A stretch of DNA of 34,665 nucleotides from Gemmatimonadota bacterium. Lineage in GTDB: Bacteria > Gemmatimonadota > Gemmatimonadetes > Gemmatimonadales > GWC2-71-9. The stretch spans positions 1 to 34,665 of the forward strand of contig JAEUJI010000241.1 in NCBI GenBank assembly GCA_016794805.1, given 5' to 3'. Both the position numbers and the translations under genes were made by a program. The notes beneath the pieces were generated by a model that worked only from the letters and a program-made list of their open reading frames with translations, was not told the DNA's origin and did not search any database. This document shows, in pieces, positions 1 to 31,397 of the stretch (within the stretch, counting starts at the first letter, position 1; each line of letters starts with the position of its first letter).

Positions 1-214
1 CCCGGCCGCGGGACGCCCGTCGTTGCACCGTGCCGGGCGCCATGGAACACCGTCCGGCCGTGCCGGCCTTGCAGCAGGGAAGGGCGGGCTCGACGCGCCA
101 GGCCGGAGACCTGCGCGGACGCCTGCCGCGATGTCTGGAGCTGCCCAGCACGGGGCCCGGGACCTCGGCGCTTGGGAGGACCGCCTTGCACCGCCCGGCC
201 GAGCCCGCGGGTAG
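1..214. other. Left edge: no supportable gene
   Basis: Both strands are open in several frames here, as expected at this GC content. None of the translations shows a recognisable motif, a credible ribosome binding site or the composition of a normal soluble or membrane protein; they are Arg/Pro/Gly/Ala-rich. A plus-strand frame closes with TAG at 212-214, so the end of a gene entering from outside the window cannot be excluded. I saw no tRNA or repeat here. Confidence 0.4.
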
Positions 215-250
215 AAAACCGACGGGGAGCGCGGCACGCCGCACTCCCCG
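215..250 (-). terminator. Candidate intrinsic terminator downstream of the recombinase
   Basis: Bases 223-250 form a hairpin: arms 223-229 and 244-250 pair perfectly, then one C/A mismatch, then 231-235 pairs with 238-242 around a two-base loop. Read on the minus strand, the hairpin is followed after four bases by TTTT (complement of 215-218). It lies about 120 bases past the stop of the minus-strand recombinase gene, where a terminator for that gene would be expected. The U tract is short, so the call is tentative. Confidence 0.4.
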
Positions 251-372
251 AGCACCCCACCACCATTATCCCCAACTCCCTCGGCGCTCCCTAACTGATA
301 TTGGACCTCCTCCCCCGCCACACCGGCGCCGGGGAGAATCTGACCAAGTGTACCGCCAAGCACCCGAAAAGG

Positions 373-1389
373 CTAACTCCGCACGGCGGGACGCTGGGCC
401 TCCGCCAGCCCGCCATCTGCCAGGCGGTCGGCCGGGCTCCGGACCCCCGGGACCCCGCGGTTCAGGACGTGAGTATACAGCATCGTGGTGGACACGTCTC
501 GATGCCCAAGCAACTCCTGCACCGTCCGGATATCGGTCCCCGACTCGAGCAGGTGAGTCGCGAACGAGTGCCGGAAGGTATGGCAGCTCACCCGCTTCGG
601 GACGCCGCTCCGCGCCGCCGCCGCCGCCACCGCCCGCTGCACCGCCGACGGGTGGAGATGATGCCGGCGCACCTGGCCCGCCGCCTCGTCCCGGTAGCGC
701 CGCCGCGCGGGAAAGACCCACTGCCACGGCCAGCTCCGGCCCGCCTGCGGGTACTTGACCCCCAGGGCACCCGGCAACGCCACCCAGCCATGATCCCGCC
801 CCCGGTCGCACTCCCGGCGAAACCCCTCCTCCACCTCCCCGAGATGCGCCGCCAGCTCCTCCCGGACCGACTCGGCCAGTACCGTCACGCGGTCCTTCGC
901 CCCCTTCCCCCGGCGGACCCGGATCTCCCGCCGCTCCAGGTCCACATCCTTCACCCGGAGGCTGAGGCATTCCTGCAGTCGCAGCCCACTGCCATACAGC
1001 AACCACCCGACCAGCCGGGCCGTCCCCCGCAGCTCGCCCAGCACCCGGGCCACCTCCTGAGGAGTCAGCACCACCGGGATCCGGGTCGGCTGCTGCGGCC
1101 GGGGAATCGCCCCGCCCACCCGCAGCGGGATGCGCAGGATCTCCCGATACAGGAACTGCAGCGCCGCCAGCGCCTGGGCCAGGGTGGACGGCGCCGCCTT
1201 CCGCTCCTCCGCCAGATGACGGAGGAATGCCAGCACTTCCGCCTCCCCCAGCTCACGAGGGTGGCGAAGGCCGTGAAACCGGACGTAGCGCCGGACCCAC
1301 ATGGTGTACGCCTCCTCGGTCCGGGGACTGAAGTGGCGTAACCGGAGATTGGCGCGCATCAGCGGCAGCAACTTGGAATTAGGCGGCAT
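373..1389 (-). CDS. Integron-type tyrosine recombinase (IntI family)
   Basis: Site-specific DNA recombinase of 338 residues, close to the 337 of class 1 IntI. The N-terminal SAM-like DNA-binding domain covers about residues 10-95 (LRLRHFSPRTEEAY is typical of IntI) and the catalytic domain 105-315. The tyrosine-recombinase residues are visible: R137 in GSGLRLQE, a Lys at 163 or 166 in RGKGAKDR, H270-x-x-R273 in CHTFRHSF, H296 in LLGH, and nucleophile Y305 in TTMLYTHV. The insert at about 200-228, with ALGVKYP followed by WPWQWVFP, is the IntI-specific patch separating integron integrases from XerC/D. The start at 1389 was chosen because homology begins there; a longer frame to 1542 adds only low-complexity residues. 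Another Met lies at 1359. No clear ribosome binding site precedes either. No attI or attC sites were recognised nearby, so the gene may be a solitary integrase or an integron remnant. Confidence 0.9.
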   Translation of the reverse strand: MPPNSKLLPLMRANLRLRHFSPRTEEAYTMWVRRYVRFHGLRHPRELGEAEVLAFLRHLAEERKAAPSTLAQALAALQFLYREILRIPLRVGGAIPRPQQPTRIPVVLTPQEVARVLGELRGTARLVGWLLYGSGLRLQECLSLRVKDVDLERREIRVRRGKGAKDRVTVLAESVREELAAHLGEVEEGFRRECDRGRDHGWVALPGALGVKYPQAGRSWPWQWVFPARRRYRDEAAGQVRRHHLHPSAVQRAVAAAAARSGVPKRVSCHTFRHSFATHLLESGTDIRTVQELLGHRDVSTTMLYTHVLNRGVPGVRSPADRLADGGLAEAQRPAVRS

Positions 1390-1527
1390 GGGGCGGGAAC
1401 ACGACGGACGAGTTGTCACCACAATAGCGCCTGCACCACCCGCCACCGGTACCGGAAAAACGCACGCCCGCCGGCCCCTCCCCCCCACTACGACACCCCA
1501 CTGCCATGCCAAGGCCCCGCAGGGACC

Positions 1528-1587
1528 GAAGCAATCCCCCACCCTCCAAGCGGAGAATGGGGGATCGCTTCGTCGCGCTTCTCGCGA
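1528..1587. repeat. REP-like double hairpin between recombinase and lipoprotein genes
   Basis: Two adjacent hairpins fill part of the 228-base gap between the minus-strand lipoprotein stop and the recombinase start. Arms 1528-1541 and 1558-1571 are inverted repeats matching at 13 of 14 positions, with a small inner stem (1544-1547 with 1552-1555). Next to them TCGCG (1573-1577) pairs with CGCGA (1583-1587). The layout resembles dispersed REP-type intergenic repeats and could also end transcription of the lipoprotein gene. It lacks the conserved core sites of an attC. No second copy was seen in this window. Confidence 0.6.
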
Positions 1588-1617
1588 TGACAGGCAGGGC
1601 TACCTTCGTCGGCCCGC

Positions 1618-2298
1618 CTACCGCGCCTGCAGCGACCAGAGCTGGTAGTTCTGGGCTGCGTTGTTCGCCCGCTGCCAGGCCGGTTTCACGCTGCCCGCGG
1701 CGTTCGGCGCATCAGCCTCGAACACCATGGCGTAGTTGCTGTTCTTGGTGAAGATCCGACCGGTCGAGGTCAGCCCCGTCGCCGTGGCCGGCAGCGGCAG
1801 GTGGAACAGCTGGTTGGCCCCGTAGTGGCAGGGATAGAACTGCAGCGCCTCGCCGCCATTGGCCGTCCCCGCCGCCACGTCCACGCAGTACGCCGGGTTG
1901 TAGACCGAGCGGAGCGCCACCCGCAGCCGATCGGTGCTGGCGGGCAGCGAGTTGCTGAAGCCCACCACGGTGAACCACTGCAGCGTGTCGAGCGACGAGG
2001 GGTAACAGAGCTGCGCCTGCAGCCGCACGCCGGTCCCGGGCAGCGCCGTCGGCCCGAGGCAACGGTCATACTGGTCGCCAGTCCAGTCGCGGATCTTGAC
2101 CTGCTTCCCCGCCCAGGGATTGCTGAGGAAGACGACCGGCGGCGGGCGGAGGATGAGATCCGCGGGGGCCACGTCCGCTTCGGCTGCCGTGACCGCCTCC
2201 TCCGCGGGGTTGGGTTGGGTCGAGTCGGAGACACAGGCCGACAGGCCTCCGAGAACGACGAGCGCGGACAGCACGGGCGACAGCGAGCGGGCCAGCAT
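1618..2298 (-). CDS. Secreted lipoprotein with ricin-B-like beta-trefoil
   Basis: A 226-residue exported protein. It starts MLARSLSP, then a hydrophobic segment and lipobox LSAC, so it is probably lipidated at that Cys and held on the outer face of a membrane. A short Asp/Ser/Pro/Glu-rich stretch leads to a domain of about 150 residues with spaced Q-x-W or Q-x-F motifs (LQWFTV, NQLFHL, YQLWSL). These are characteristic of ricin-type beta-trefoil carbohydrate-binding folds. The repeats are degenerate, so sugar binding is inference. The start is fixed by a strong Shine-Dalgarno sequence, AGGAGG, four bases upstream of the ATG at 2298; the frame stays open upstream but without signal. The gene runs in the same direction as the recombinase and diverges from the HAF lipoprotein at 2694. 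No catalytic domain is visible. Confidence 0.75.
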   Translation of the reverse strand: MLARSLSPVLSALVVLGGLSACVSDSTQPNPAEEAVTAAEADVAPADLILRPPPVVFLSNPWAGKQVKIRDWTGDQYDRCLGPTALPGTGVRLQAQLCYPSSLDTLQWFTVVGFSNSLPASTDRLRVALRSVYNPAYCVDVAAGTANGGEALQFYPCHYGANQLFHLPLPATATGLTSTGRIFTKNSNYAMVFEADAPNAAGSVKPAWQRANNAAQNYQLWSLQAR

Positions 2299-2447
2299 AC
2301 TTCCTCCTGATGACGCAGCGTGTGAGAGTGATGGTGCTCCAGTCCTGCATCCAAGCAACGCGATGGGGCCGATCCGGCTCTCACGCCGCTCGCGGCGCAC
2401 CGCGGTGTAGCGCACATCACAACGGCGGAAGTTCTCACTGGGCGTTA

Positions 2448-2467
2448 GGCGGTAGCGACGGTAACGA
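2448..2467. repeat. Half copy of the 9-mer palindromic repeat
   Basis: The first 17 bases are identical to the reverse complement of the right arm of the palindrome at 9643-9699, and the unit also recurs at 29580-29643. No inverted partner follows, so this is one arm only. It begins inside GCGTTAGGC (2442-2450). Confidence 0.6.
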
Positions 2468-2539
2468 AGAGACGTGTCGAGCATCGACCCCCTGATCCCC
2501 CTCTCCCGCCAACCTCACGGATCCTTCAGTTCCCTCGGC

Positions 2540-2547
2540 TATCTTGG
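2540..2547 (+). promoter_or_regulatory. TATCTTGG box, candidate -7 element
   Basis: TATCTTGG lies 147 bases upstream of the HAF lipoprotein start. It matches the Bacteroidetes -7 box TAnnTTTG at all but one fixed position, and the same octamer occurs at 5229. No clear TTG -33 element was found at the expected distance, so this is a pattern-based guess. Confidence 0.25.
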
Positions 2548-2693
2548 GGTGCGAGGTCATCCGCCTCACGGACCAGCAGGAGCGGTGGCACCAATCGCGG
2601 TTCCCAGAGACGCCCCCCCCGCCACCCCTCGACGGACACGCCCCCGCTGCCGCCGCCCCAACTCCGTCCGGCACGAAACGCGGAGGCACATTC

Positions 2694-3779
2694 ATGAGAA
2701 ACTCCTTCTGGTATCTCGCCGGGGCCCTCCTGGTCACGGGGTGCGCCGACGCCGCTCGGCCGGTGGACGAATCCGGACTGGCCCAGGCGGTCACCGTCTC
2801 CCGGGTGATCCCCGGCCTCGATCTGGGGAGCCTCGGTGGCCCGGGCGCTTCCTCTCAGGCCGGCGACATCAACAACGCCGGCGTCGTGGTGGGCGTGTCC
2901 CTCAATCAGGCTGGCCTGACGCGCGCCTTCCGCTGGACCAGGAATGGCGGCATGCAGGACCTCGGCACCCTGCCGGGTGGAACCCAGAGCGGCGCCACCC
3001 GCATCGTGGACGACGGTCAAATCCTCGGTTGGAGCGATAACGCTGCCGGCGCCCGGGTCCCCGTCCGCTGGAACACCGCCGGCCGGATCGAACAACTCCA
3101 ACTCCCCTGGCTGTCCGACACCGCGTACACCCACGAGACCGCCGACTTCAGCCAGCGCGGCGAGGTGGTCGGCTCTGCCACTGGCGAGGCGATGCACGGC
3201 TGGTACTGGTCCAGGGCCACCGGGATGCTGGACCTGCGGGACCAGGTGCCGAGCTGCATGGAGAATTTCGCGTACGCCATCAACGCCCAGGGCACGGTCA
3301 CCGGTGCGGCCTGCAGCGGGCTCGGCTATCCCATGGCGTACACCTGGAACCGCGAGCGCGGCTACCAGTTCCTGGATATTGGGGAGTTTCCGGAATCCGT
3401 CGCCTTCGGACTGGCGATCAGCGATGCCGGCACGGTGGGCGGCTTCATCGACGTCCGGCTCGCCGGCCAGCCCGCCCCCGCGATCTGGCCCAGCGGAAAG
3501 GGGCTCGTCCGCCTCCCCAATCTCCCCAGCCGTGAGCCCTGGGGGCAGGTCACCGGGGTGAACGATCGCGATATCGCGGTGGGTTACAGCAGGGATTCGA
3601 CCGGGGCCTGGCAGCCGGTGGCGTGGCCCAATGCAAGGACCCTCCTGCTGCTCGCGACCGCTGAACGCCAGGGCGGCTCGGCGGCCGCCATCAATAACCG
3701 GCGGCAGGTGGCCGGCTGGGGCGCGGGCAATGGGGGCGCACGCCACGCGATGCTGTGGCAGCTGCCCGGGGAGCGGTAA
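2694..3779 (+). CDS. HAF-repeat extracellular lipoprotein
   Basis: A 361-residue exported protein with a signal peptide ending in the lipobox VTGC (Cys17). The mature part consists of repeats of about 45-60 residues that pair an Ile-Asn-Asn/Asp-x-Gly-x-Val-x-Gly strand with an Ala-Phe-x-Trp segment. Examples are DINNAGVVVGVS, AINAQGTVTGAA, AISDAGTVGGFI, GVNDRDIAVGYS and AINNRRQVAGWG, plus AFRWTRNGGMQDLGTLPGG. This is the HAF family of probable extracellular repeats, likely a beta-propeller or solenoid; the molecular function of the family is not known. The start is the ATG at 2694, eight bases after GGAGG; upstream in-frame codons give a Pro-rich non-signal extension. It appears to be a single-gene unit, followed by a 13-bp inverted repeat. 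Confidence 0.8.
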   Translation: MRNSFWYLAGALLVTGCADAARPVDESGLAQAVTVSRVIPGLDLGSLGGPGASSQAGDINNAGVVVGVSLNQAGLTRAFRWTRNGGMQDLGTLPGGTQSGATRIVDDGQILGWSDNAAGARVPVRWNTAGRIEQLQLPWLSDTAYTHETADFSQRGEVVGSATGEAMHGWYWSRATGMLDLRDQVPSCMENFAYAINAQGTVTGAACSGLGYPMAYTWNRERGYQFLDIGEFPESVAFGLAISDAGTVGGFIDVRLAGQPAPAIWPSGKGLVRLPNLPSREPWGQVTGVNDRDIAVGYSRDSTGAWQPVAWPNARTLLLLATAERQGGSAAAINNRRQVAGWGAGNGGARHAMLWQLPGER

Positions 3780-3825
3780 GCTCCGCCCCTGCCTCCCCAG
3801 CAACACCTGGCGGGAGGTGAAGTCG

Positions 3826-3877
3826 GTGGCGGGACCGGGTCGCGACTCACGGCCCCATGCAACTCCGGTCCCGCCAC
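3826..3877. repeat. Perfect 13-bp inverted repeat
   Basis: GTGGCGGGACCGG (3826-3838) is the exact reverse complement of 3865-3877, with a 26-base loop. It lies between the HAF gene stop (3779) and the serine hydrolase start (3979). No T tract follows. It could be a Rho-assisted stop, a REP-like element or an operator. The rest of the 199-base gap shows nothing else recognisable. Confidence 0.6.
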
Positions 3878-3978
3878 AAGGCGCATTCGTCCCTTCACGG
3901 CCCCCGTTCGTCCCCTTCTCCCTCCCCCATTCATCGCTGCGGCCCCACCGTTCGCGCTCCACTCAACCGGAGCGACTG

Positions 3979-5130
3979 ATGTCCCCGCGCACCACCCTGA
4001 TTCTCGTGAGCCTGACCCTGGCCGGCGCCGCGTGTGCCGCCGACCGCAACGGCCCGGACCTGCCGCCCGCGGCCTCCGCCCTCGACAGCGTGCTGCTGGA
4101 GGCGCGGGCCGCGGCCGGTCTCCCCGCGATGGCCGCCATCGTGGTCCGCGCCGATACCACCCTCGCCATCGGCGCGGTGGGCGTCCGGAAGCAGGGCGGC
4201 CACGCCGCAGTGAGCACCGCCGACCGCTTTCACCTGGGCTCCAATGTGAAGGCGATGACTGCCACGATGATCGCGACGCTGGTGGAGGAGGGGGCGCTGC
4301 ACTGGGCCACCCGCCCGGTGGACGTCTTTCCGGAGCTGGCAGGGGAGATCAACCCCGCCTTCGGTCAGGTCACGCTCGAGCAGTTGCTGCAGCACCGCGC
4401 CGGAATCGAGCCGCTGCTCTATTTCGGCGACGTGCCCCCCTTTGCCGGTACCCCCGCGGAGCAGCGCTACCAGGGCACGGCGCTGGTGCTCGGGCTCGAT
4501 CCCGCCGGGCCAGTGGGGGAGTTCCTCTACTCCAACGCCGGCTACGCGGTGGCCGCCGCCATGGCGGAGCGGGTGACCGGCAGCCCCTGGGAACAGCTGA
4601 TGACCGAGCGGCTCTTCGCCCCGCTGGGCATCACTCCGCTGTTCGGCTGGCCCGCCGCCGCTACCGCCGGCGCCCCGTGGGGGCACGCGCCACAGGGCAA
4701 TCGGCTGGTGCCGCTCGACCCGATGGCCCCGACCATGCCCGCCGCCATCGATCCCGCCGGCGAGCAATCGCTGACGCTCGAGGCCTATGCCCGCTTCGCG
4801 CAGCTGCACCTGCGCGGACTCGCCGGCCGCCCGTCGCTGGTCGGGACCCCGACCTACGCACGCCTGCACGCGCCCGTCGGCGACTATGCGCTGGGCTGGG
4901 GAGTGGTGGACTTCGCTGGCGAGATGACCAGCACCCACAACGGCAGCACCGGCGCTTTCTACGCCACGGTGTTCCTCCAGCCGGGACGTGACCTGGCGGT
5001 GATCGTCGTCAGCAACGCCGGCGGGGACACCGCCGCCGCCGCGACCGTTGGCGCGGGGATCGAGCTGCTGCGCCGCTACGGTGGAGCGGTGCCCGGCGCC
5101 GCCGTCGCGGCCCGGCTCGCGGCGCGGTAG
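3979..5130 (+). CDS. Serine hydrolase, class C beta-lactamase / DD-peptidase fold
   Basis: A 383-residue exported enzyme of the beta-lactamase family that includes AmpC, DD-carboxypeptidases and esterases. The catalytic motifs are intact: S88-N-V-K91 (HLGSNVKAMT; nucleophile and general base), Y184-S-N186 (LYSNAGY) and H320-N-G322 (THNGSTG, equivalent to KTG). The N-terminus is a signal peptide ending near GAACAAD; it may be cut by signal peptidase I or lipidated, as the Cys context is not a classic lipobox. The start is the ATG at 3979, seven bases after GGAG. The His replacing Lys in the third motif is common in esterase and peptidase relatives, so antibiotic hydrolysis should not be assumed; substrates are probably peptides or esters in the periplasm. 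The gene stands alone, and a GC-rich hairpin lies at 5150-5168. Confidence 0.85.
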   Translation: MSPRTTLILVSLTLAGAACAADRNGPDLPPAASALDSVLLEARAAAGLPAMAAIVVRADTTLAIGAVGVRKQGGHAAVSTADRFHLGSNVKAMTATMIATLVEEGALHWATRPVDVFPELAGEINPAFGQVTLEQLLQHRAGIEPLLYFGDVPPFAGTPAEQRYQGTALVLGLDPAGPVGEFLYSNAGYAVAAAMAERVTGSPWEQLMTERLFAPLGITPLFGWPAAATAGAPWGHAPQGNRLVPLDPMAPTMPAAIDPAGEQSLTLEAYARFAQLHLRGLAGRPSLVGTPTYARLHAPVGDYALGWGVVDFAGEMTSTHNGSTGAFYATVFLQPGRDLAVIVVSNAGGDTAAAATVGAGIELLRRYGGAVPGAAVAARLAAR

Positions 5131-5149
5131 CCTCGCGCGCCAGGGCCGC

Positions 5150-5168
5150 GGCCCGCTGGTGGCGGGCC
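5150..5168 (+). terminator. GC hairpin after serine hydrolase
   Basis: GGCCCGC (5150-5156) pairs perfectly with GCGGGCC (5162-5168) around a five-base loop, 20 bases after the stop codon. No T run follows, so termination here is only suggested by position. Confidence 0.25.
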
Positions 5169-5228
5169 CTGCAGGGCAGGGGGAGGGCGATTCACCCCGC
5201 CTTCCCAGGAGCTTCATGGCCGGCGCGG

Positions 5229-5236
5229 TATCTTGG
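5229..5236 (+). promoter_or_regulatory. TATCTTGG box before the small membrane peptide
   Basis: This is a second exact copy of the octamer found at 2540. It ends 14 bases before the ATG of the 36-residue peptide. If it is a -7 box, the transcript would start almost at the ribosome binding site. Confidence 0.25.
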
Positions 5237-5250
5237 TCAGGGAGGTTCCT

Positions 5251-5361
5251 ATGCCTGCGCCCGGTAGCCAGTACGCGCCCTCTCACCATCACGCCCGCCT
5301 GATCCGGCTGGCACTGATGCTGCAGCTGCTCGCCCTCATGGCCGCCCTCCTGATGGCCTGA
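5251..5361 (+). CDS. Small single-pass membrane peptide, 36 aa
   Basis: A 36-codon frame from ATG at 5251 to TGA at 5359-5361. The first 15 residues are polar (MPAPGSQYAPSHHHA) with a three-His cluster. The rest, from about residue 18, is one continuous hydrophobic Leu/Ala/Met stretch that would span the membrane and ends only one or two residues after it. AGGGAGG lies five bases before the ATG, one of the best ribosome binding sites in the window, which argues that it is translated. I do not recognise a family. Small proteins of this form often modulate a membrane partner. The nearest downstream gene is the membrane sulfatase-like enzyme at 5534, 172 bases away, but no link is demonstrated. 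Confidence 0.6.
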   Translation: MPAPGSQYAPSHHHARLIRLALMLQLLALMAALLMA

Positions 5362-5533
5362 GGCGGTCCAGGGGCGCGAGTGACTCGATTTGCTCCTGCC
5401 GCTTTTTCGTTCATTGCGCATGATCTTGCGGACCTGAGATTGGCGGAGGCAGGGCGACGTCGCTAGCGGACGGCGCCCTGCGCCGGCTTGCCACAAGTTT
5501 CCGAGGGGCGCGCACCGGCCCGACGGAGGACGC

Positions 5534-7363
5534 TTGGCGAACCCCCGCTCCCGCAATTCCGCTGACCTCCTGGGCGCCGCGCTTTGCGTGGGGCTGGGGG
5601 TGGGGCTGCTCGAAGGCGCCCTCTACCACATCCCGCAGGTCCACCACTTCCTGACCCGGCAGAACATCCGCCTCGGCCCCGACCGCCTCTGGCTTCCCGC
5701 CGCCGCGAACCTGGTCTGGTTCGGCATCGCGGCCTTGGCGCTCGCGCTGCTGCATCGGCTCTGGCCCGGCCGGGTCTCCGCCGCCCGGGCGATCGGGGTC
5801 CTCGCAGGGCTCGCGGCGCTCAGCCTCACGATGCTGTTCACCCGGATGCACGACGTCGCCCACACCCTGATTGCGGTGGGCGTCGGGGTGCAGGCGTCGC
5901 GTCTGCTGGAGAGGCAAGGCGAAGGGGCGCTGCGCGGCCTGCGCCGTGCGCTGCTTCCCGCCCTGGGGCTGGCGGCGCTTGCCGCCGTCGGGTCCACCCT
6001 GGTGCCGCGCTTCCGGGAAGCACGGGCTCTGGCGGCCACCCCGGCGCCGCCGGCGGGCCGGCCCAACGTGCTGCTGATCATCCTGGACACGGTGCGGGGC
6101 TTCAACCTCAGCCTGCACGGGTACCACCGCGCCACCACTCCGCGGCTGGACCTGCGTGCCGCCGAGGGCGCCACCTTCGACCGGGCTATGACGGCGTCAC
6201 CCTGGACACTGCCGTCCCACGGCAGCGTCTTCACCGGGCAGTATCCCTATGCCCTGTCCACCGACTTCAAGCTGCCGCTCGACGGGACCCACCGGACCCT
6301 GGCCGAGGAGTTCACCGCCCAGGGCTATCGGACTGCCGGCTTCGTGGGGAACCTGCCCTACGGCAGCCGGGCCCTCGGCCTGGGTCGCGGCTTCCTGCAC
6401 TACGAGGACATCCCGGTCACCCCGCCCCAGATGATGCTGCACTCCACCCTCGGCCGGTGGCTCAAGGCGAACATCGTCAGCCCGATCCGCAAGCGGACCG
6501 GCCGGCACGACCTGTTCGACCGGCGCAAGGCGCCGGCGATTACCGATCGCTTCCTGGCCTGGAGCGGTGCCGCCGCCGAGCGGCCGTTCTTCGTCTTTCT
6601 CAACTATTACGACGCGCACCACCCCTATCTCCCCCCGGCTCCCTACGACCGGCGCTTCGTCCCGGAGAGCCAGCCCTCCTATGTCCCGTGGGACGTCGAG
6701 AGCCGGCGGGAGCCGTTCACCCCGGCGATGGTGGCCGCGGCGCAAGCCGCCTACGACGGGGCGATCAGCTTCCTGGATCAGGAGCTGGGGCGGATGTTCG
6801 ATACCCTGGCCGCGCGCGGCACGCTGGACAACACCATCGTCATCGTGACCTCCGACCATGGCGAACACTTCGGGGAGCACGGCCTGATGGCGCACGGCAA
6901 CAGCGTGTACCGGCCGCTGCTGCAGGTGCCGCTGTTCATTCGCTATCCGGAGCGGGTGCCGGGCGGCATTCGAATCGCGGAGCCCGTCACCCTCCGCGAT
7001 CTGGGCGCCACGGTGTTCGACCTGGCGCGGCTGGTTCCGTCCTTTCCCTGGCCGGGGGGGTCGCTCCGGGCGGCCTGGGACGGCGGCTACCAGGGTTCAC
7101 CGCCCTCGCCGGTGTACGCCGAGCTGCGGTCGGGCAAGCGGTGGCGGGCATCGCTGCTGAGCGATGGCTACCAGCTCTACCGCGACGACCAGGGCGCCCG
7201 GGCGCTGTTCGACCAGGCCAGGGACCCGAACGGCGAGGCGAACCTGATCGCGGGGGACAGTGCCACGAGTGCGCTGATCACGATTGCCGCCCGGCTAACG
7301 GAACGGATGGACTCCCTGGTCCCACCCGGCTCGCGCACCATCGCCACCGGCCGCGCGGACTAG
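5534..7363 (+). CDS. Membrane-anchored sulfatase-fold (alkaline phosphatase superfamily) enzyme
   Basis: A 609-residue protein. About four or five membrane segments lie in residues 12-157, followed by an Ala/Pro linker and a sulfatase-type domain from about residue 177, probably on the outer face. Metal-site motifs are clear: NVLLIILDTVRG (D185), NYYDAHHPYLPP and TSDHGEHFGEHG (D441, H442). At the nucleophile site the sequence reads SPWTLPSHGS, so T225 takes the position normally held by the Cys or Ser that becomes formylglycine, and the Arg of C-x-P-x-R is His. This fits the Thr-nucleophile branch such as LtaS-type phosphoglycerol or phosphoethanolamine transferases better than true sulfatases; the exact reaction is unknown. 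The start is a TTG at 5534, preceded by GGAGGA; no ATG occurs before the second half of the membrane region. Confidence 0.8.
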   Translation: MANPRSRNSADLLGAALCVGLGVGLLEGALYHIPQVHHFLTRQNIRLGPDRLWLPAAANLVWFGIAALALALLHRLWPGRVSAARAIGVLAGLAALSLTMLFTRMHDVAHTLIAVGVGVQASRLLERQGEGALRGLRRALLPALGLAALAAVGSTLVPRFREARALAATPAPPAGRPNVLLIILDTVRGFNLSLHGYHRATTPRLDLRAAEGATFDRAMTASPWTLPSHGSVFTGQYPYALSTDFKLPLDGTHRTLAEEFTAQGYRTAGFVGNLPYGSRALGLGRGFLHYEDIPVTPPQMMLHSTLGRWLKANIVSPIRKRTGRHDLFDRRKAPAITDRFLAWSGAAAERPFFVFLNYYDAHHPYLPPAPYDRRFVPESQPSYVPWDVESRREPFTPAMVAAAQAAYDGAISFLDQELGRMFDTLAARGTLDNTIVIVTSDHGEHFGEHGLMAHGNSVYRPLLQVPLFIRYPERVPGGIRIAEPVTLRDLGATVFDLARLVPSFPWPGGSLRAAWDGGYQGSPPSPVYAELRSGKRWRASLLSDGYQLYRDDQGARALFDQARDPNGEANLIAGDSATSALITIAARLTERMDSLVPPGSRTIATGRAD

Positions 7364-7499
7364 CGGTCGCCTCCCGGCGGCCGGCGCCGCTCTCCGCCCC
7401 ACCCTCGCTGAGTCCTTCCCGCACGGTGCCCGCAGGTCGCTGGCAATCCGGCAGTTACGCGCCTGTCGATTTCCCCGCTCCCCATTCGACGCATGGGTA

Positions 7500-7521
7500 G
7501 CGGCGGCACTCCTGCCGCCGC
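7500..7521. other. Perfect 9-bp hairpin upstream of the DGPF module
   Basis: GCGGCGGCA (7500-7508) pairs exactly with TGCCGCCGC (7513-7521) over a four-base loop. It sits in the 283-base gap between the sulfatase-like gene and the double YCII gene, 137 bases past the former and 126 before the latter. It may be a Rho-assisted stop or a leader structure. The rest of the gap holds no recognisable gene. Confidence 0.4.
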
Positions 7522-7646
7522 GACCGGGCCCGACGCCTGGAGGGGTGCATGACGGTGCAGGGGCGGTGCAGATTGTGCCCAGGCCTGTGCCGCTCCCGCG
7601 CCGCCGTCCCGGATCCGCCAGATATGCCGAGCTGGGAATCACGCCA

Positions 7647-8372
7647 ATGCGAATCATGATGATGCACCGCACCGAACCGAAGTGGGAACGCGGCGAGCTG
7701 CCGGGTCCGGAGCTGATCGCCGGGATGGGCGCGCTGATGGCCGAGATGCAGCAGGCGGGGGTGCTGCTCTCCGGCGGCGGGCTCCGGCCCAGCTCGATGG
7801 GGGTCCGGCTCAACGTTGCCGGGGGCAAGCGCACGATCACGCCCGGCCCGTTCACCCCCGGCAACGAGCTTCCCGCCGGCTTCGCCATCCTCCGGACCAG
7901 GTCCCTCGAGGAAGCCGTGGCATGGAGCACCCGCTTCGCCGAGCTGATCGGCGACGTCGAGGTGGACATCCGCCCGGTGACGGAAGCGTGGGATCTCGGC
8001 ATGATGCCCAGGCCGGCCGACCTGACCACCACCCGCTACATGGCGGTGCACAAGGCGAATGCCGCCTCGGAGTCCGGCGCCCCGCCCACGACCGCGATGA
8101 TGGAACGGATGGGGAAGCTGATCGAGGAGATGGCCGCCGCCGGCGTGCTGCTCGCCGCCGAGGAGCTGACCCCGAGCGCGCAGGGCCTGCGGCTCCGGTT
8201 CCGGGGCGGCAAGCGCAGCATCACCGACGGGCCCTTCGCCGAATCGAAGGAACTGATCGCCGGCTTCGTGATGCTGCAGGTGCGGAAGATCGAGGACGCG
8301 CTCCCCTGGGCGACGCGCTTCGCCGCCTGCACCGGGGATGTCGAGCTCGACCTCCGGCCGCTCGCGGACTGA
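7647..8372 (+). CDS. Double YCII/DGPF-domain protein
   Basis: A 241-residue cytoplasmic protein made of two fused YCII-like (DGPF, COG3795) ferredoxin-fold domains, residues 1-112 and 127-241. The second has the family motif intact, ITDGPFAESKELIAGF (D194-G-P-F197). In the first it reads ITPGPFTPGNELPAGF, with Pro in place of the signature Asp. Each domain carries a Met-rich helix, a LxPSxxGxRL segment and a C-terminal V-E-[VL]-D-[IL]-R-P strand. The start at 7647 (MRIMMMHRTEP) matches the normal N-terminus of the family; an upstream GTG at 7545 adds 34 unrelated residues. The gene ends 15 bases before the ECF sigma gene and is probably co-transcribed with it. Linkage of DGPF proteins to ECF42 sigma factors is a known conserved arrangement; their biochemical role is unsettled. 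Confidence 0.85.
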   Translation: MRIMMMHRTEPKWERGELPGPELIAGMGALMAEMQQAGVLLSGGGLRPSSMGVRLNVAGGKRTITPGPFTPGNELPAGFAILRTRSLEEAVAWSTRFAELIGDVEVDIRPVTEAWDLGMMPRPADLTTTRYMAVHKANAASESGAPPTTAMMERMGKLIEEMAAAGVLLAAEELTPSAQGLRLRFRGGKRSITDGPFAESKELIAGFVMLQVRKIEDALPWATRFAACTGDVELDLRPLAD

Positions 8373-8387
8373 CGGACGGCGCGGACG

Positions 8388-9650
8388 GTGACCAGCTCCG
8401 ACGCCCACCGCGCGATCGACGCCGTCTGGCGGATCGAGGCCCCGCGGCTGATCGCGGCCCTGGCCCGCCTGGTGGGGGACGTAGGCACCGCGGAGGAGCT
8501 GGCCCAGGACGCGCTGGTGGCCGCGCTGGAGCAGTGGCCCGAAGCGGGAGTGCCCCGGAACCCCGGCGCCTGGCTCATGGCCACCGCGAAGCACCGGGCG
8601 CTGGACCTGCTCCGCCGTGACAAGATGCTGGAGCGGAAGCACCGGCAGCTGAGTCACGAGCTGGAGGAACAACAGGAGCGGACCGTCCCCGACCTGCACG
8701 AGGCGCTGGATGATGACATCGGCGACGACCTGCTGCGGCTGATGTTCACCGCCTGTCACCCGGTGCTTTCCACCGAAGCCCGGGTGGCGCTCGCGCTCCG
8801 GGTGCTGGGGGGGCTCACCACCCCGGAGATCGCGCGGGCCTTCCTGGTGCCCGAGGCTACGGTGGCGCAGCGGATCGTCCGGGCCAAGCGCACCCTCGCC
8901 GAGGCGCGGGTGCCGTTCGAGGTGCCGCGGGGCGCCGATCGCGCCGAACGGCTGGCCTCGGTGCTCGGCGTGATCTACCTGATCTTCAACGAGGGCTACG
9001 CCGCCACCGCCGGCGAGGACTGGATGCGCACCGAGCTCTGCGAGGAGGCGCTCCGGCTGGGCCGGATCCTCGCCGAACTGACGCCGGAGGACCCGGAGGT
9101 GCACGGGCTGGTGGCGCTGATGGAGATCCAGGCCTCGCGCGCGGCGGCGCGCACCGGGCCGGCGGGAGAGCCGATCCTGCTGCTGGACCAGGACCGGGCG
9201 CGGTGGGACCAGCTGCTCATCCGCCGAGGCCTGGCGGCGCTGGCCCGGGCCGAGTCGCTCGGTGGCGCCCTCGGGCCCTATGCGCTGCAGGCGGCGATCG
9301 CCGCCTGTCACGCCCGGGCGGCGCGGGGCGAGGACACCGACTGGCCCCGCATCGTGGCGCTGTATGATGCGCTGGCCCAGCTCGCGCCGTCACCGGTGGT
9401 GGAACTCAACCGGGCGGTGGCGGTGGGGATGGCCTTCGGGCCGGCGGCGGGGCTCGAGGCGGTGGACCGGTTGCTCGCCGAGCCGACGCTCAAGTCCTAT
9501 CATCTCCTCCCGAGCGTGCGGGGCGACCTGCTGCAGAAGCTGGGACGGCTGGACGAGGCCCGGGCGGAGTTTGCGCGGGCGGCGGGGCTGACACGGAATG
9601 CGCGGGAGCGGGCGATCCTGCTGGAGCGGGCGGCGGGGTGTGGGCGGTAA
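8388..9650 (+). CDS. ECF RNA polymerase sigma factor, ECF42-like, with long C-terminal domain
   Basis: A 420-residue sigma factor, much longer than a plain ECF sigma (about 180-200). Region 2 covers about 15-80 (EELAQDALVAALEQWP, AWLMATAKHRALDLLRRDK) and region 4 about 115-170 (LRVLGGLTTPEIARAFLVPEATVAQRIVRAKRTL). A C-terminal extension of about 240 residues is rich in Ala/Leu helices of TPR-like character (DUF6596 type, with LASVLGVIYLIFNEGY). This architecture and flanking DGPF genes on both sides are the hallmark of group ECF42, which has no classical anti-sigma factor and is thought to be controlled through the C-terminal domain. The start is a GTG at 8388, 15 bases after the upstream stop. 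The TAA stop (9648-9650) lies inside the left arm of a 9-mer palindrome. Confidence 0.9.
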   Translation: MTSSDAHRAIDAVWRIEAPRLIAALARLVGDVGTAEELAQDALVAALEQWPEAGVPRNPGAWLMATAKHRALDLLRRDKMLERKHRQLSHELEEQQERTVPDLHEALDDDIGDDLLRLMFTACHPVLSTEARVALALRVLGGLTTPEIARAFLVPEATVAQRIVRAKRTLAEARVPFEVPRGADRAERLASVLGVIYLIFNEGYAATAGEDWMRTELCEEALRLGRILAELTPEDPEVHGLVALMEIQASRAAARTGPAGEPILLLDQDRARWDQLLIRRGLAALARAESLGGALGPYALQAAIAACHARAARGEDTDWPRIVALYDALAQLAPSPVVELNRAVAVGMAFGPAAGLEAVDRLLAEPTLKSYHLLPSVRGDLLQKLGRLDEARAEFARAAGLTRNARERAILLERAAGCGR

Positions 9651-9699
9651 CGACGGTAGCGACGGTACCGACGGTACCGTCCTTACCGTCGCTACCGCC
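9643..9699. repeat. 9-mer palindromic repeat over the sigma-factor stop codon
   Basis: Arms 9643-9667 and 9675-9699 are inverted repeats matching at 22 of 25 positions around a seven-base loop. The whole is built of degenerate nine-base units (GGTARCGAC-type in the left arm, their reverse complements in the right). The last codons and stop of the sigma gene are part of it. A related copy lies inside the kinase gene at 29580-29643 and a half copy at 2448. As RNA it would fold into a strong hairpin between the sigma and DGPF genes, able to reduce read-through or protect the upstream message. Confidence 0.85.
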
Positions 9700-9734
9700 T
9701 GCCACCGAAACCCAAACTTTCACCGGAGCACACA

Positions 9735-10163
9735 ATGCGCGTCATGGTGATCATCAAGGCGGACAAGGATTCCGAGGCCGGCGTGATGCCGAGCCAGCAG
9801 CTGCTGACGGAAATGACGGCGTACAACGAGCAGCTGGTGCAGGCCGGGATCATGCTCGCCGGGGAGGGGCTGCTCCCGAGCAGCAAGGGCAAGCGGGTCC
9901 GGTTCGACGGGGCCAAGCGCAGCGTGATTGACGGGCCCTTCGCCGAGACCAAGGAGCTGATTGCCGGCTTCTGGCTGTGGCAGGTGAAATCCATGGACGA
10001 GGCGGTGGAGTGGCTCAAGCGCTGCCCCAACCCGATGAACGCGGTGACGGACGTGGAGATCCGCCCGGTGGGCGAGGTGGATGACTTCGGGGAGGTGCTC
10101 ACTCCCGAGCTGCGCGCCCGGGATGAGGCGATGCGGGCCGAGATTGAGAAGCTCAAGAAGTGA
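9735..10163 (+). CDS. YCII/DGPF-domain protein
   Basis: A 142-residue single-domain YCII-like protein with the intact motif SVIDGPFAETKELIAGF (D66-G-P-F69) and the usual start MRVMVIIKADKDSEAG. A Met/Gln-rich helix, LLPSSKGKRVRF, the DGPF turn and VEIRPVGEVDDFG follow in family order. The C-terminus adds a charged helix (LRARDEAMRAEIEKLKK) not present in the double-domain relative. The ATG at 9735 is preceded by GGAG with eight-base spacing. It lies 84 bases after the sigma gene, separated by the palindromic repeat, and should belong to the same ECF42 module. Short complementary runs at 10164-10169 and 10190-10195 follow the stop. Function is unassigned beyond the family. Confidence 0.85.
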   Translation: MRVMVIIKADKDSEAGVMPSQQLLTEMTAYNEQLVQAGIMLAGEGLLPSSKGKRVRFDGAKRSVIDGPFAETKELIAGFWLWQVKSMDEAVEWLKRCPNPMNAVTDVEIRPVGEVDDFGEVLTPELRARDEAMRAEIEKLKK

Positions 10164-10281
10164 GCCCCCTCCGCCGTCCTGCCGCCACCGGGGGCGCCCT
10201 TGCCGAATCGCGTCCATTGCAGCATCCTCGGGCACCCCCAACCCACCTCCCTCTCAGGGAATTGCGCCCGGTCGGCCCCTC

Positions 10282-10935
10282 ATGTCCTACGTCAACTGCC
10301 CCGACTGCAACCAGAAGGCGCTGAGCGTCGCTACCCGATGCCCGCGCTGCGGGCTCGCGTTCGAGGGCCGGTTTGCCGGGCCTCCGGTCAAGCGCTCCCG
10401 GCCGATCGTGCCGATCCTGCTGCTCACCGGGGGGCTGGCCGGGGTGCTCGTGGCGGTGAACCTGGTGGTACGGGAGACGGGCACCGCGCCGAAGGTCGGG
10501 GTGCCGGTGGCAAAGGCGCCGGTGGTCAAGGCGCCGGCCGTGTCCGAGGGGATGGTCCCGCCGCCCCGGCCGGAGCCGGCGCGGCAGCCTGCGGTCGCTC
10601 CGGCCGCGGCGGAGAGCACACCGGCTGCGCCCCCGGAGCGAATCGAGCCGGAGCCCCAGCCCGTGGTCGTGGCGCCGCCGCCGGCGGCGCGCCCGGCCAC
10701 CGAGCCCCGGGTGGCGCTGGCGGTGGCCAGGGAGTCCCGGTACGCCAACACCTGGGTGAATGTGCGGGCCGGCCGCAGCCCTTCGGCGCCGGTGCTGCGC
10801 ACCCTGGAGCCGGGAGAGCTGGTGGCGGTGGACACCCCCCTGCAGGGGTGGTACCGCGTGGTGAACGGCGGCCGGGAGACGGGGTACGTGGACGGGCGGT
10901 TCCTCGATACCGCCCCGCCGCCCGACTCGCCCTGA
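10282..10935 (+). CDS. Zinc-ribbon, single-TM, SH3b-domain protein
   Basis: A 217-residue membrane protein. The N-terminal zinc ribbon has C6-x2-C9 and C20-x2-C23 (NCPDCNQ, RCPRCGLAF). One membrane helix at about 42-63 follows, then a Pro/Ala/Val-rich linker (about 68-145) and a C-terminal bacterial SH3 domain (about 150-212) with the typical segments WVNVRAGRSPSAPVL, GELVAV and WYRVV...GYVDGRFL. Predicted topology puts the ribbon in the cytoplasm and the SH3b domain in the periplasm, where such domains bind peptidoglycan or peptide ligands. The start is the ATG at 10282, immediately before the first Cys pair; there is no good ribosome binding site. It lies 191 bases upstream of the kinase operon with the same polarity. 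Whether it takes part in that signalling is unknown. Confidence 0.75.
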   Translation: MSYVNCPDCNQKALSVATRCPRCGLAFEGRFAGPPVKRSRPIVPILLLTGGLAGVLVAVNLVVRETGTAPKVGVPVAKAPVVKAPAVSEGMVPPPRPEPARQPAVAPAAAESTPAAPPERIEPEPQPVVVAPPPAARPATEPRVALAVARESRYANTWVNVRAGRSPSAPVLRTLEPGELVAVDTPLQGWYRVVNGGRETGYVDGRFLDTAPPPDSP

Positions 10936-10954
10936 GCGGAGCCGGAGGGCAGGA

Positions 10955-10987
10955 GGGGCCGCCGGCCTGACCGGGATCAGCGGCCCC
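10955..10987 (+). terminator. Hairpin after the SH3b gene
   Basis: GGGGCCGC (10955-10962) pairs exactly with GCGGCCCC (10980-10987), 20 bases after the stop codon. A C run rather than a T run follows, so it would need Rho or act only as a 3' end barrier. It separates the SH3b gene from kinase operon A. Confidence 0.35.
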
Positions 10988-11020
10988 CCCCGCGCGCTCG
11001 CGTAAACCTCCGCAGCGCTG

Positions 11021-11028
11021 CATCTTGG
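11021..11028 (+). promoter_or_regulatory. CATCTTGG box, candidate promoter of kinase operon A
   Basis: CATCTTGG differs by one base from the TATCTTGG at 2540 and 5229. It lies 99 bases upstream of the kinase 1 ATG in a gap with no gene. It is the best candidate I see for the operon A promoter; no clear -33 element accompanies it. Confidence 0.25.
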
Positions 11029-11126
11029 TGCCCTGTGACATCCCCCGCGACAACCGCCCATCCATCCTCAAGCGCCCCTCGGCGCTGCACGCGCACGTCG
11101 GTCGCTGCGGCGGTCGGTGGGGTGTG

Positions 11127-13867
11127 ATGAGCCCGATCCCCGACCGCCTCGCGTCGGCCCTGTCCGACCGCTACCGCCTGGAGCGGGAACTCGGCGCCGG
11201 CGGCATGGCCACGGTGTACCTGGCGCACGACCTCAAGCATGACCGGCAGGTCGCGATCAAGGTGCTGCGGCCGGAACTCGCGGCCGTGATCGGCGCCGAG
11301 CGGTTTCTCTCCGAGATCAAGACCACCGCCAACCTGCAGCACCCGCACATCCTGCCCCTGTTCGACTCGGGGATTGCCGTGGACTCGGCGGCTCGGCGGC
11401 TGGACGGCTCGGCGGAGGGCTCCCCGGCGGTCGAGTCGCCGAGCCGCCGAGACGCCGAGTTCCTGTTCTACGTCATGCCCTTCATCGAGGGCGAATCGCT
11501 CCGCGACCGGCTCACCCGGGAGAAGCAGCTGCCGATTGGCGATGCCCTCCGCATCGCCACCGAGATCGCGGGCGCGCTCGACTACGCCCACCGCCACAAC
11601 GTGATCCACCGCGACATCAAGCCGGAGAACATCCTGCTGCACGACGGCCGCGCGCTGGTGGCCGACTTCGGGATCGCGCTCGCCGCCAGCAAGGCGGGCG
11701 GCAGCCGGATGACCGAGACGGGAATGTCGCTCGGCACCCCGACGTACATGAGTCCCGAGCAGGCGATGGGGGAGCGGGAGATCACCGCCCGAAGCGACGT
11801 CTACGCCCTGGGCTGCGTGCTGTACGAGATGCTGATCGGCGAGCCGCCCTTCAACGGGCCCACCGCGCAGGCGATCGTCGCCAAGGTGATGACGGCCGAG
11901 CCCGCCTCCCTGGCCGGCCAGCGGAAGTCCATCCCGCCCCAGGTCGAGGGCGCGGTGTTCACGGCGCTGGAGAAGCTGCCGGCGGACCGGTGGTCGTCCG
12001 CGAAGGAGTTTGCCGAAGCGCTGGCCGGGGATGGCATGACGGCACGACGGCACGACGGCAGGAGTGTCACCGGCCGAGCCGCCGAGCCGCCGAGTCGCCG
12101 AGCCGCCCTGTACGCGGCACTCTCGCTGGCTACGCTGATCGCTCTCTGGGGCTGGCTCCGGCCCGCCGCCGAGCCGGCGACCAGCCGGCAGCAGGTGACG
12201 CTCTGGCGGCATACCCTGGGCTCCCTGCTCTCGCCCGGCGTCTCCCGGATCGCGACCCAGGCGGCGATCGCGCCCGATGGATCGAGCATCGTCTTCGCCG
12301 ATCCGGCGAACGATTCCTCCCCGCTCCGGCGCAAGCTGCGCGGTGAGGCCGACAGCCGGCCGCTCGCCGGGACCGAAGGCGGGACCTCGCCGTTCTTCTC
12401 TCCCGATGGCCGGTGGCTCGGCTTCATGGCGCCGGGGGGCCGGCTGCGGAAGGTGCCGGTCGAGGGCGGGGCGCCCATGACCCTGGCCACCGATGGCAAC
12501 ATGGTCTATCCCTCCGCGGCCTGGCTGGACGACGGGCGGATCATCTACGTGGGCGCGAGTGCCGGGTTCCGGCAGGTATCGAGTGACGGCGGGGCGAGCC
12601 GGGTGCTCGGTGATACCACGACCAACGCGACCGACAACTCCGGGATGCTCGCCCCGTTGCCGGGCAGTCGCGGCGTCCTCTTCACCAGCTGCCCCGGCAA
12701 CTGCGCCGTGGCCTCCTCGGTCCATGTCTTCGACCTGGCCACCGACAGCAGCCGGCTGCTGGTGGCCGATGCGGCTGGCGCCTGGTACTCGCCCACCGGG
12801 CACCTGCTCTACGGCGACCGGTCCGGCGCGCTGTTCGCCGCCGCGCTGGATCTCAAGCGCCTGACCCTCACCTCGGGCGCCGTGCCGGTCATCGAGGATG
12901 TGCTGCCCGGCAGCATCGCGCTCTCGGCGTCGGGCAGCCTGGTCTACGCCGTGGCCACCGGGGGCAGCGTCCCGACCGAGCTGGTGTGGGTCTCGCGCCA
13001 GGGGCAGGTGGAGCCGGTGGACTCGAGCTGGCGCGCCGACTTCCAGTACCCCGCCGTCTCGCCCGATGGCACGTCCCTGGCGGTGAGCGTGCGCGACGGC
13101 CCAACCCAGATCTGGATCCGGCGCGCCGACGGCACCCGGCAGCAGCTCACCGACAGCGGCACGGTCAACTGGCGGCCCTCCTGGTCCGCCGACAGCCGGT
13201 CCATCGTCTTCCTCTCCAACCGCCGCGGCGCCGCGCAGGGCGGGTACGACGCCTATCAGTCGGTGGTGGATGGCAGCGCCCCGGCCCAGCTCCTGCTGGA
13301 CTATCACTTCGGGCTGTGGGAGGCGGAGCTGTCGCCGGACAACCAGTGGCTGGTGGTGCGCTCGGACGAGGAGAGCAACATCGGCCGCATCCGGGCCCGG
13401 CGGCTCACCGGCGACACCACGCTGGTGCCGCAGGTCGTGGACCAGTACCTGAACAACAACGTGTCGCTGTCGCCCGACGGGCGCTGGCTCGCCTACACCT
13501 CGAACCGCTCGGGACGGAAGGAGGTCTATGTCGCCCCGTTCCCCTCGGCGACCTCCGCCCGCCTGGTGTCCCGGTACGGCGGCAGCGAGGTGCGCTGGGC
13601 GCGGAGCGGCCGCGAGCTCTTCTACAAGGGCGAGCGCGAGCTCATGGTGGTGCCGATCACCCCCGGCGCGGCCTTCGTGGCCGGCACTCCCCGGCCGCTC
13701 TTCGGCCTGTCCGGCTTCCGGTCCGCGCGGAACCGGCCGCAGTACGATGTCTCCCCCGACGGGCAGCGCTTCCTGATGATCCGGGAACCCTCGGACGAGC
13801 AGTTCGGGAAGGTGGTGTACGTCGAGCACTGGTTCCCGGAGCTCCGGGGCAAGGTGAGGGCCAAGGA

Positions 13868-13871
<4 letters not shown>
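11127..13871 (+). CDS. Ser/Thr protein kinase 1, PD40 propeller sensor
   Basis: A 914-residue Hanks-type kinase. The cytoplasmic kinase domain covers about 16-300: Gly loop ELGAGGMATVYLA, K45, HRD 161-163, DFG 180-182, activation-loop GTPTYMSPEQ. One membrane helix lies at about 326-345. The rest is a WD40-like (PD40) propeller, with repeated S-P-D-G-x-x-[IL] blades (from SPDGRWLGFM near 425 to VSPDGQRFLMI near the end), predicted outside the membrane. Two in-frame octamer arrays make it unlike normal relatives. One adds 29 residues in the loop after HILPLFDSG (about 83-111). The other forms the Arg/Ala/Glu/Pro-rich juxtamembrane linker (about 304-325). The start at 11127 is the ATG eleven residues before DRYRLERELG; an upstream frame adds unrelated residues. 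First gene of operon A; its TGA overlaps the GTG of kinase 2. Confidence 0.93.
11383..11460. repeat. Inverted octamer array inside kinase 1 (TCGGCGGC units)
   Basis: Four octamers of the TCGGCGGC type (11385-11416, with substitutions) are followed after 19 bases by three reverse-complement octamers (11436-11459). Overall 11383-11410 and 11433-11460 form an inverted repeat matching at 24 of 28 positions. It is read in frame as an Ala/Arg/Ser/Glu-rich insert in the kinase N-lobe at the same loop where kinases 4, 7 and 8 carry other octamer arrays. Confidence 0.85.
12038..12104. repeat. Two octamer arrays in the kinase 1 juxtamembrane linker
   Basis: Three GACGGCAC-type units (12038-12061) are followed by four GCCGAGCC-type units (12073-12104). 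GCCGAGCC is the reverse complement, rotated, of the TCGGCGGC unit 650 bases upstream in the same gene. The array is translated into the linker just before the membrane helix. Confidence 0.8.

Positions 13872-16494
<2,623 letters not shown>

Positions 16495-16498
<4 letters not shown>

Positions 16499-28696: not shown

Positions 28697-31397
<2,701 letters not shown>

Follow-up and report, generated by a model that had tools for sequence, protein, structure and literature searches.

The short open reading frame discussed here lies in a stretch of 34,665 nucleotides from a bacterium of the Gemmatimonadota, the whole of which is called the window below. It is found on the plus strand between the gene of a serine hydrolase and that of a sulfatase-like hydrolase. 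The features of the window that matter for its interpretation are as follows:

373-1389, minus strand: integron integrase gene (TIGR02249, E 9.8e-123)
3979-5130, plus strand: upstream neighbour, a serine hydrolase of the Beta-lactamase Pfam family (PF00144), with the start taken from a simple caller
5216-5302, plus strand: rival overlapping frame with a Shine-Dalgarno sequence (AGGAG), ATG at 5216, 28 amino acids, in a different frame, stop at 5302
5229-5236, plus strand: TATCTTGG box, with a possible -10 element (TATCTT)
5239-5245, plus strand: Shine-Dalgarno sequence AGGGAGG (contains GGAGG), 5 nt (TTCCT) before the ATG
5251-5361, plus strand: open reading frame of 36 codons, with a His-rich head, one predicted membrane helix and a predicted N-in/C-out topology
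5360-5407, plus strand: terminator-like hairpin, opening within the stop codon and closing with TTTTT (5403-5407)
5534-7363, plus strand: downstream neighbour, a membrane-anchored sulfatase-like hydrolase (PF00884), with about four hydrophobic stretches before the enzyme domain

An earlier, sequence-only reading of this DNA had described the frame, and its coordinates, the ATG, the spacing of AGGGAGG, the 36 codons, the three-His head and the single span were all borne out when the sequence was read directly. The frame ends with a TGA stop at 5359-5361, and the 36 codons are counted from the ATG at 5251; the list of open reading frames opens the same frame at an in-frame TTG at 5233. The peptide encoded from the ATG, MPAPGSQYAPSHHHARLIRLALMLQLLALMAALLMA, opens with a polar head that is rich in His (HHH at residues 12-14, R16, R19) and continues into a hydrophobic C-terminal stretch rich in Leu, Ala and Met, with Kyte-Doolittle maxima of 2.45 over 17 residues and 2.29 over 19. 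AlphaFold2, run on the single sequence, predicted one helix at residues 12-35 with a mean pLDDT of 77.7 (block means of 93 for residues 21-30, 84 for 31-36 and 58 for 1-10). Having no more than 50 amino acids and one predicted hydrophobic helix of membrane length, the peptide has the size and build of a single-span small membrane protein. By the positive-inside rule it should sit with its head inside and its C-terminus out. The frame is too short for ordinary gene finders.

The neighbouring genes deserve some comment. The sulfatase-like protein carries TASPWTLPSH at residues 220-229, the site of the FGly sulfatase motif, and because this stands where C/S-x-P-x-R is expected, the product of 5534-7363 may not be a true sulfatase. 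Its own genome holds eight relatives at E ≤ 1e-60, itself included, and one stretch of that genome (L130, C295:7000-21000) has genes of about 600 amino acids in a tandem row, several of them sulfatase-like. The integron integrase gene led to an integron gene cassette being considered and then rejected, as no attC-like pair (RYYYAAC ... GTTRRRY) 45-150 bp apart was present in the window by the strict consensus, which a degenerate site may escape. A single core-like word, GTTAGGC, lies at 2444 on the plus strand. Iterated 9-base units, CGACGGTAC / GTACCGTCG, occur at 9658-9684 and 29619-29637, some of them side by side in both orientations and hairpin-like, and the units are met again in numerous other parts of the own-genome sequence. 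An Rfam search over the window returned nothing at the gathering score, with two chance microRNA matches at 9632-9699.

Translation signals, codon choice and chance

The expectation by chance was drawn from a sample of 52 stretches of the same genome, the window included, which amounts to 582,197 bases at 68.7% G+C and covers about 15% of a genome of 3911 kb. Genes in it were called by a simple codon-score script and not by Prodigal, which gave 462 of at least 70 amino acids. Of 427 called genes with at least 100 amino acids, 79 are preceded by one of a set of Shine-Dalgarno 5-mers, and 15 have such a 5-mer at a control position. The intergenic set taken from the 52 stretches comprised 186 regions with 55,334 bases, and 50 first-order Markov shuffles of it served as the null. 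Frames of 20-69 amino acids that start with ATG and have a Shine-Dalgarno 5-mer at the right spacing (SD-ORFs) numbered three in the real regions and 5.4 +/- 2.3 in the shuffles, and for this reason the ribosome-binding site alone is no argument for a gene. One of the three is the overlapping frame at 5216-5302, whose coding score of -5.6 indicates a codon usage that is not gene-like. When a hydropathy of at least 1.6 was also demanded, the 36-codon frame was the one real SD-ORF left in the 186 regions, compared with 0.04 in the shuffles. A coding score of 9 or above was reached by none of the hydrophobic shuffle frames, and the 36-codon frame scores 9.6. The ribosome-binding site is thus ordinary when taken alone, and unusual when taken together with the membrane span and the codon usage. 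The sequence-only reading had held the match of translation signal, length and hydrophobicity unlikely to be chance, a judgement that stands for the hydrophobic SD-ORF (0.04 expected) and falls for the ribosome-binding site by itself (3 versus 5.4).

The codons of the frame provide a second line of evidence. Among the forward frames at this position the coding score is 9.4 for frame 0, and -33.4 and -16.3 for the others. In a stricter comparison the protein was held fixed, and its synonymous choices were compared between gene-like and null usage by a log-likelihood ratio. With intergenic usage as the null the ratio was 4.06 (P = 0.0024), and with the base composition of both flanks as the null it was 4.22 (P = 0.00135); both nulls assume independent codons. 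Since 19% of simulated genes (intergenic null) or 17% (flank-composition null) score as low or lower, the frame is gene-like in its choice of codons. GC3 alone is marginal (30 of 35, P = 0.047).

These results weigh against the possibility that the frame arose by chance within the beta-lactamase-like gene's 3' untranslated region, and that the hairpin is the terminator of that gene. Such an origin would agree with the overlapping second frame, which shows that G-rich spacers produce such sites, with a T-run that lies 272 nt past the beta-lactamase stop on the same strand, and with the lack of conservation in the genomes of the family and phylum described below. It is nevertheless an unlikely origin, considering that the codon choice given the protein has a P of about 0.001-0.002, that only 0.04 hydrophobic SD-ORFs were expected, and that the stop codon and the hairpin abut exactly.

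Possible promoter and terminator

The box that had been noted just upstream of the frame is present at 5229-5236 and is a putative promoter element. If TATCTT acts as a -10 element, it would place the transcript start near 5241. In 217 upstream regions, TATCTT occurs 8 times in sense and 5 times in antisense, against 0.59 expected from the whole sample; AT-rich words are generally over-represented upstream of genes, and 8 versus 5 shows no clear strand bias for this one. The longer word, TATCTTGG, has no genome-wide excess, with 14 sites compared with 23 for the reversed word, and as a promoter signature it was rejected on that ground. Seven of the 14 sites were examined, namely those readable on the plus strand of their loci. 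At L215 and L217 a long gene-like frame opens with its ATG 3-4 nt after the word, and at 2540 such a frame follows at 146 nt. The site at 5229 is itself one of the seven, and for the other three the scores suggest, without settling it, a position inside coding frames. A sigma-70 scan of 1-20000 found no site with a -35/-10 pair. The TATCTTGG box is accordingly no better than a plausible -10 element.

The hairpin at the stop codon was absent from the sequence-only reading. It folds at -24 kcal/mol with a modest z of -1.97, and 8 of 200 shuffles were as good. Its TTTTT is the only T5 on the plus strand of the window, and a T5 within 80 nt past the stop was found for one of the 386 genes tested in the own-genome sample. 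On both strands of the 582 kb there are 18 T5 runs, of which 5 have a strong adjacent hairpin and 3 of those are intergenic, the hairpin at 5360-5407 being one of the three. A standard terminator scan of 1-20000 did not list it, presumably because of its bulges, and gave four other sites against 4.4 in shuffles. In an isolated transcript of 175 nt, the mean pair probability of the terminator stem is 0.14. The region is read most simply as giving a stand-alone transcript with its end at the stop codon, and the hydrophobic SD-ORF, the codon choice and the hairpin with its T-run together suggest a monocistronic gene.

The main functional rival is a leader peptide, by which translation of the 36 codons would control the formation of the hairpin, and with it the end of transcription before the sulfatase-like gene at 5534. 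The layout is that of an attenuator, with a terminator-like hairpin right after a short frame and upstream of a candidate regulated gene. The hairpin starts inside the stop codon, so that its 5' arm would be hidden under a ribosome at termination, 126 nt separate the end of the T-run from the sulfatase start on the same strand, and T5 runs are rare after ordinary genes of this genome, as the single case among 386 shows. Between the end of the frame and the hairpin's 5' arm a duplex of -20.9 kcal/mol can also form, an alternative pairing that need not be special, with 24 of 100 codon-resampled versions disrupting the stem at least as much. HHH aside, the peptide has no run of regulatory codons, and there is no known reason for a control of a sulfatase by His. 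Moreover, the stretches of the seven other sulfatase relatives in the genome (L129-L131) are without an intergenic SD-ORF of 20-69 amino acids, and a leader peptide needs no membrane span of 20 residues. An attenuator is, on this evidence, rather improbable.

Homologue searches and a second peptide family

Against its own genome the 36-mer returned itself and two weak matches (E 1.1 and 3.6), and is thus present in a single copy. Within the genus it was found in one of two genomes, its own. Matches at E ≤ 1 were returned from 24 of the 102 genomes of the family, its own included (best foreign E 0.051), and at E ≤ 0.5 from 63 of the 395 of the phylum, its own included (best foreign E 0.004); these yielded no credible homologue, and neither did the matches from 2 of the 9 genomes behind 11 other loci (E ≤ 1). 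Searches of plasmids and phages gave nothing at E ≤ 10, and the NCBIfam, PHROGs, Pfam and PADLOC profile libraries gave no family match. None of the 17 weak matches that were inspected looks like a homologue. The three of the first batch lie in short frames; ten of the eleven in the second are inside frames of 105-565 amino acids, and the other is inside a 56-residue frame, off its start; two of the last three are inside frames of 166 and 192 amino acids, and the third is in a 30-residue frame with no membrane span.

Conservation of the frame upstream of sulfatase-like genes had been proposed as a check on its reality. Of 103 loci given, 95 had a usable match and 4 of these were too short, and in the 91 upstream regions that were left no other short hydrophobic frame resembles the 36-mer by eye. 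The expected conservation was therefore not seen in these 91 regions or in the family and phylum genomes, in what is a test of low power, and the 36-mer as a conserved partner of the sulfatase was rejected as an unsupported link. The other genome of the genus (G001) has neither the beta-lactamase-like gene (E ≤ 1e-50) nor the sulfatase-like gene (E ≤ 1e-60). At the same cut-offs, the former protein is found in 2 of 102 family genomes and the latter in 9 of 102, its own included, and no syntenic locus was found for comparison with the region of the 36-mer. Since both neighbours are hardly conserved at the cut-offs used, the missing homologues are weak counter-evidence. Literature searches on small transmembrane proteins with ribosome binding sites in Gemmatimonadetes, and on small membrane proteins upstream of sulfatase genes in Planctomycetes, found nothing.

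The scan upstream of sulfatases did bring to light an unnamed family of small membrane peptides that share the motif Y-x-[GAS]-P-[ED]-T-x-x-P-x-x-S. Scanning for it gave 13 matches, from which 5 were dropped by eye as not alike and 8 were kept (L031, L035, L060, L062, L063, L064, L065 and L069), all at loci fetched for their sulfatase homologues. The peptide of L063 lies downstream of the match. An alignment of the eight peptides (A1) has invariant Y, P, T, P, S and G. Four of the eight, compared with Pfam and NCBIfam, gave just two weak matches below the curated cut-offs, and a literature search on YFGPET found nothing. The 36-mer was rejected as a member, with the motif absent and an hhalign probability of 0.2% over one aligned column.

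A profile of the [GAS]P[ED]T peptides matches 10 of 102 family genomes (E ≤ 0.01), among them one copy in the own genome (C307:19284-19406, L131). The gene that follows this copy is not sulfatase-like by BLASTP, but the one beyond it is sulfatase-like. With the own genome left out, the peptide is present in 7 of 8 genomes that have the sulfatase and in 2 of 93 that do not, both of the latter matches being weak; Fisher's P of 1.6e-8 ignores kinship, genome size and the choice of cut-offs. Two of the genomes (G057 and G090) match by construction, because two rows of the profile come from them, and after their removal the peptide is found in 5 of 6 sulfatase genomes. Physical linkage is less general, 3 of 11 loci having a sulfatase homologue in the flanks that were fetched. 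It may be imagined that the sulfatase-like membrane enzymes of this group act together with small membrane peptides, as a rule those of the [GAS]P[ED]T kind, and that in this lineage the 36-mer is an unrelated replacement in a unit of its own, or also serves as a translation-sensing switch, its stop codon abutting the terminator before the sulfatase gene, an idea that we regard as a long shot. The [GAS]P[ED]T family near sulfatase-like genes is more testable than the 36-mer itself.

The 36-mer as a probable small membrane protein

A membrane peptide gene missed by gene finders, as the sequence-only reading had it, is the best reading of the locus; codon usage and the terminator-like hairpin speak for it, and the negative conservation test speaks weakly against it. 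On balance, the frame is probably, if far from certainly, a real gene for a small membrane protein. The sequence, the Shine-Dalgarno, the gene-like codons, the hairpin with its T-run and the predicted helix are directly seen or computed at 5229-5407; that the frame is transcribed and translated, and that its product enters the membrane in the given orientation and has a partner there, is inferred. Positions 5229-5407 would form a self-contained unit of promoter, strong ribosome-binding site, 36-codon frame and intrinsic terminator, and the product would be a peptide that crosses the membrane once, the HHHAR..R head lying in the cytoplasm and the C-terminus outside. Purely by analogy with other small bacterial membrane proteins, the peptide would most likely pack sideways against a larger inner-membrane protein and tune its stability or activity. 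Should the gene be real, its product is an orphan among small membrane proteins, from a G+C-rich bacterium that has been little studied, and a case in which codon choice given the protein, together with an abutting terminator, can support a gene where homology cannot.

A membrane-damaging small toxin of a type I toxin-antitoxin pair, which the length, the hydrophobicity and the stand-alone unit with a terminator would suit, is very unlikely in view of the single copy in the genome, the lack of a family match in the profile libraries, a 5' leader that would be very short if TATCTT is the -10, and the antisense partner, of which none was seen (the sole minus-strand T5 in the window is at 1456, with none near 5229-5407). 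Most E. coli type I toxins are given as 18-51 amino acids long in one account, which also names the type I toxins TimP, TisB and Hok (PMC7667032). The 36-mer is short and hydrophobic as they are, and the comparison with such toxins went through the profile libraries, with no match.

Closer at hand are the single-span small bacterial membrane proteins, described as a class in PMC7549839. In its size, its one hydrophobic helix and its few charges, the 36-mer resembles members such as E. coli YohP (27 amino acids). Another such protein of E. coli is YkgR, with a single span in 33 amino acids. The 36-mer departs from YohP and YkgR in its orphan sequence and its His-rich head, and no sequence relation to them was seen. 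With the [GAS]P[ED]T peptides of A1 it shares its shortness and its one span, and at several loci these too precede a sulfatase-like gene in the same orientation. They differ from it in being 47-61 amino acids long, with the span near the N-terminus and a basic tail after it, which is the opposite charge pattern. The 36-mer is probably a further example of a type of small protein that is common in bacteria, but with an orphan sequence.
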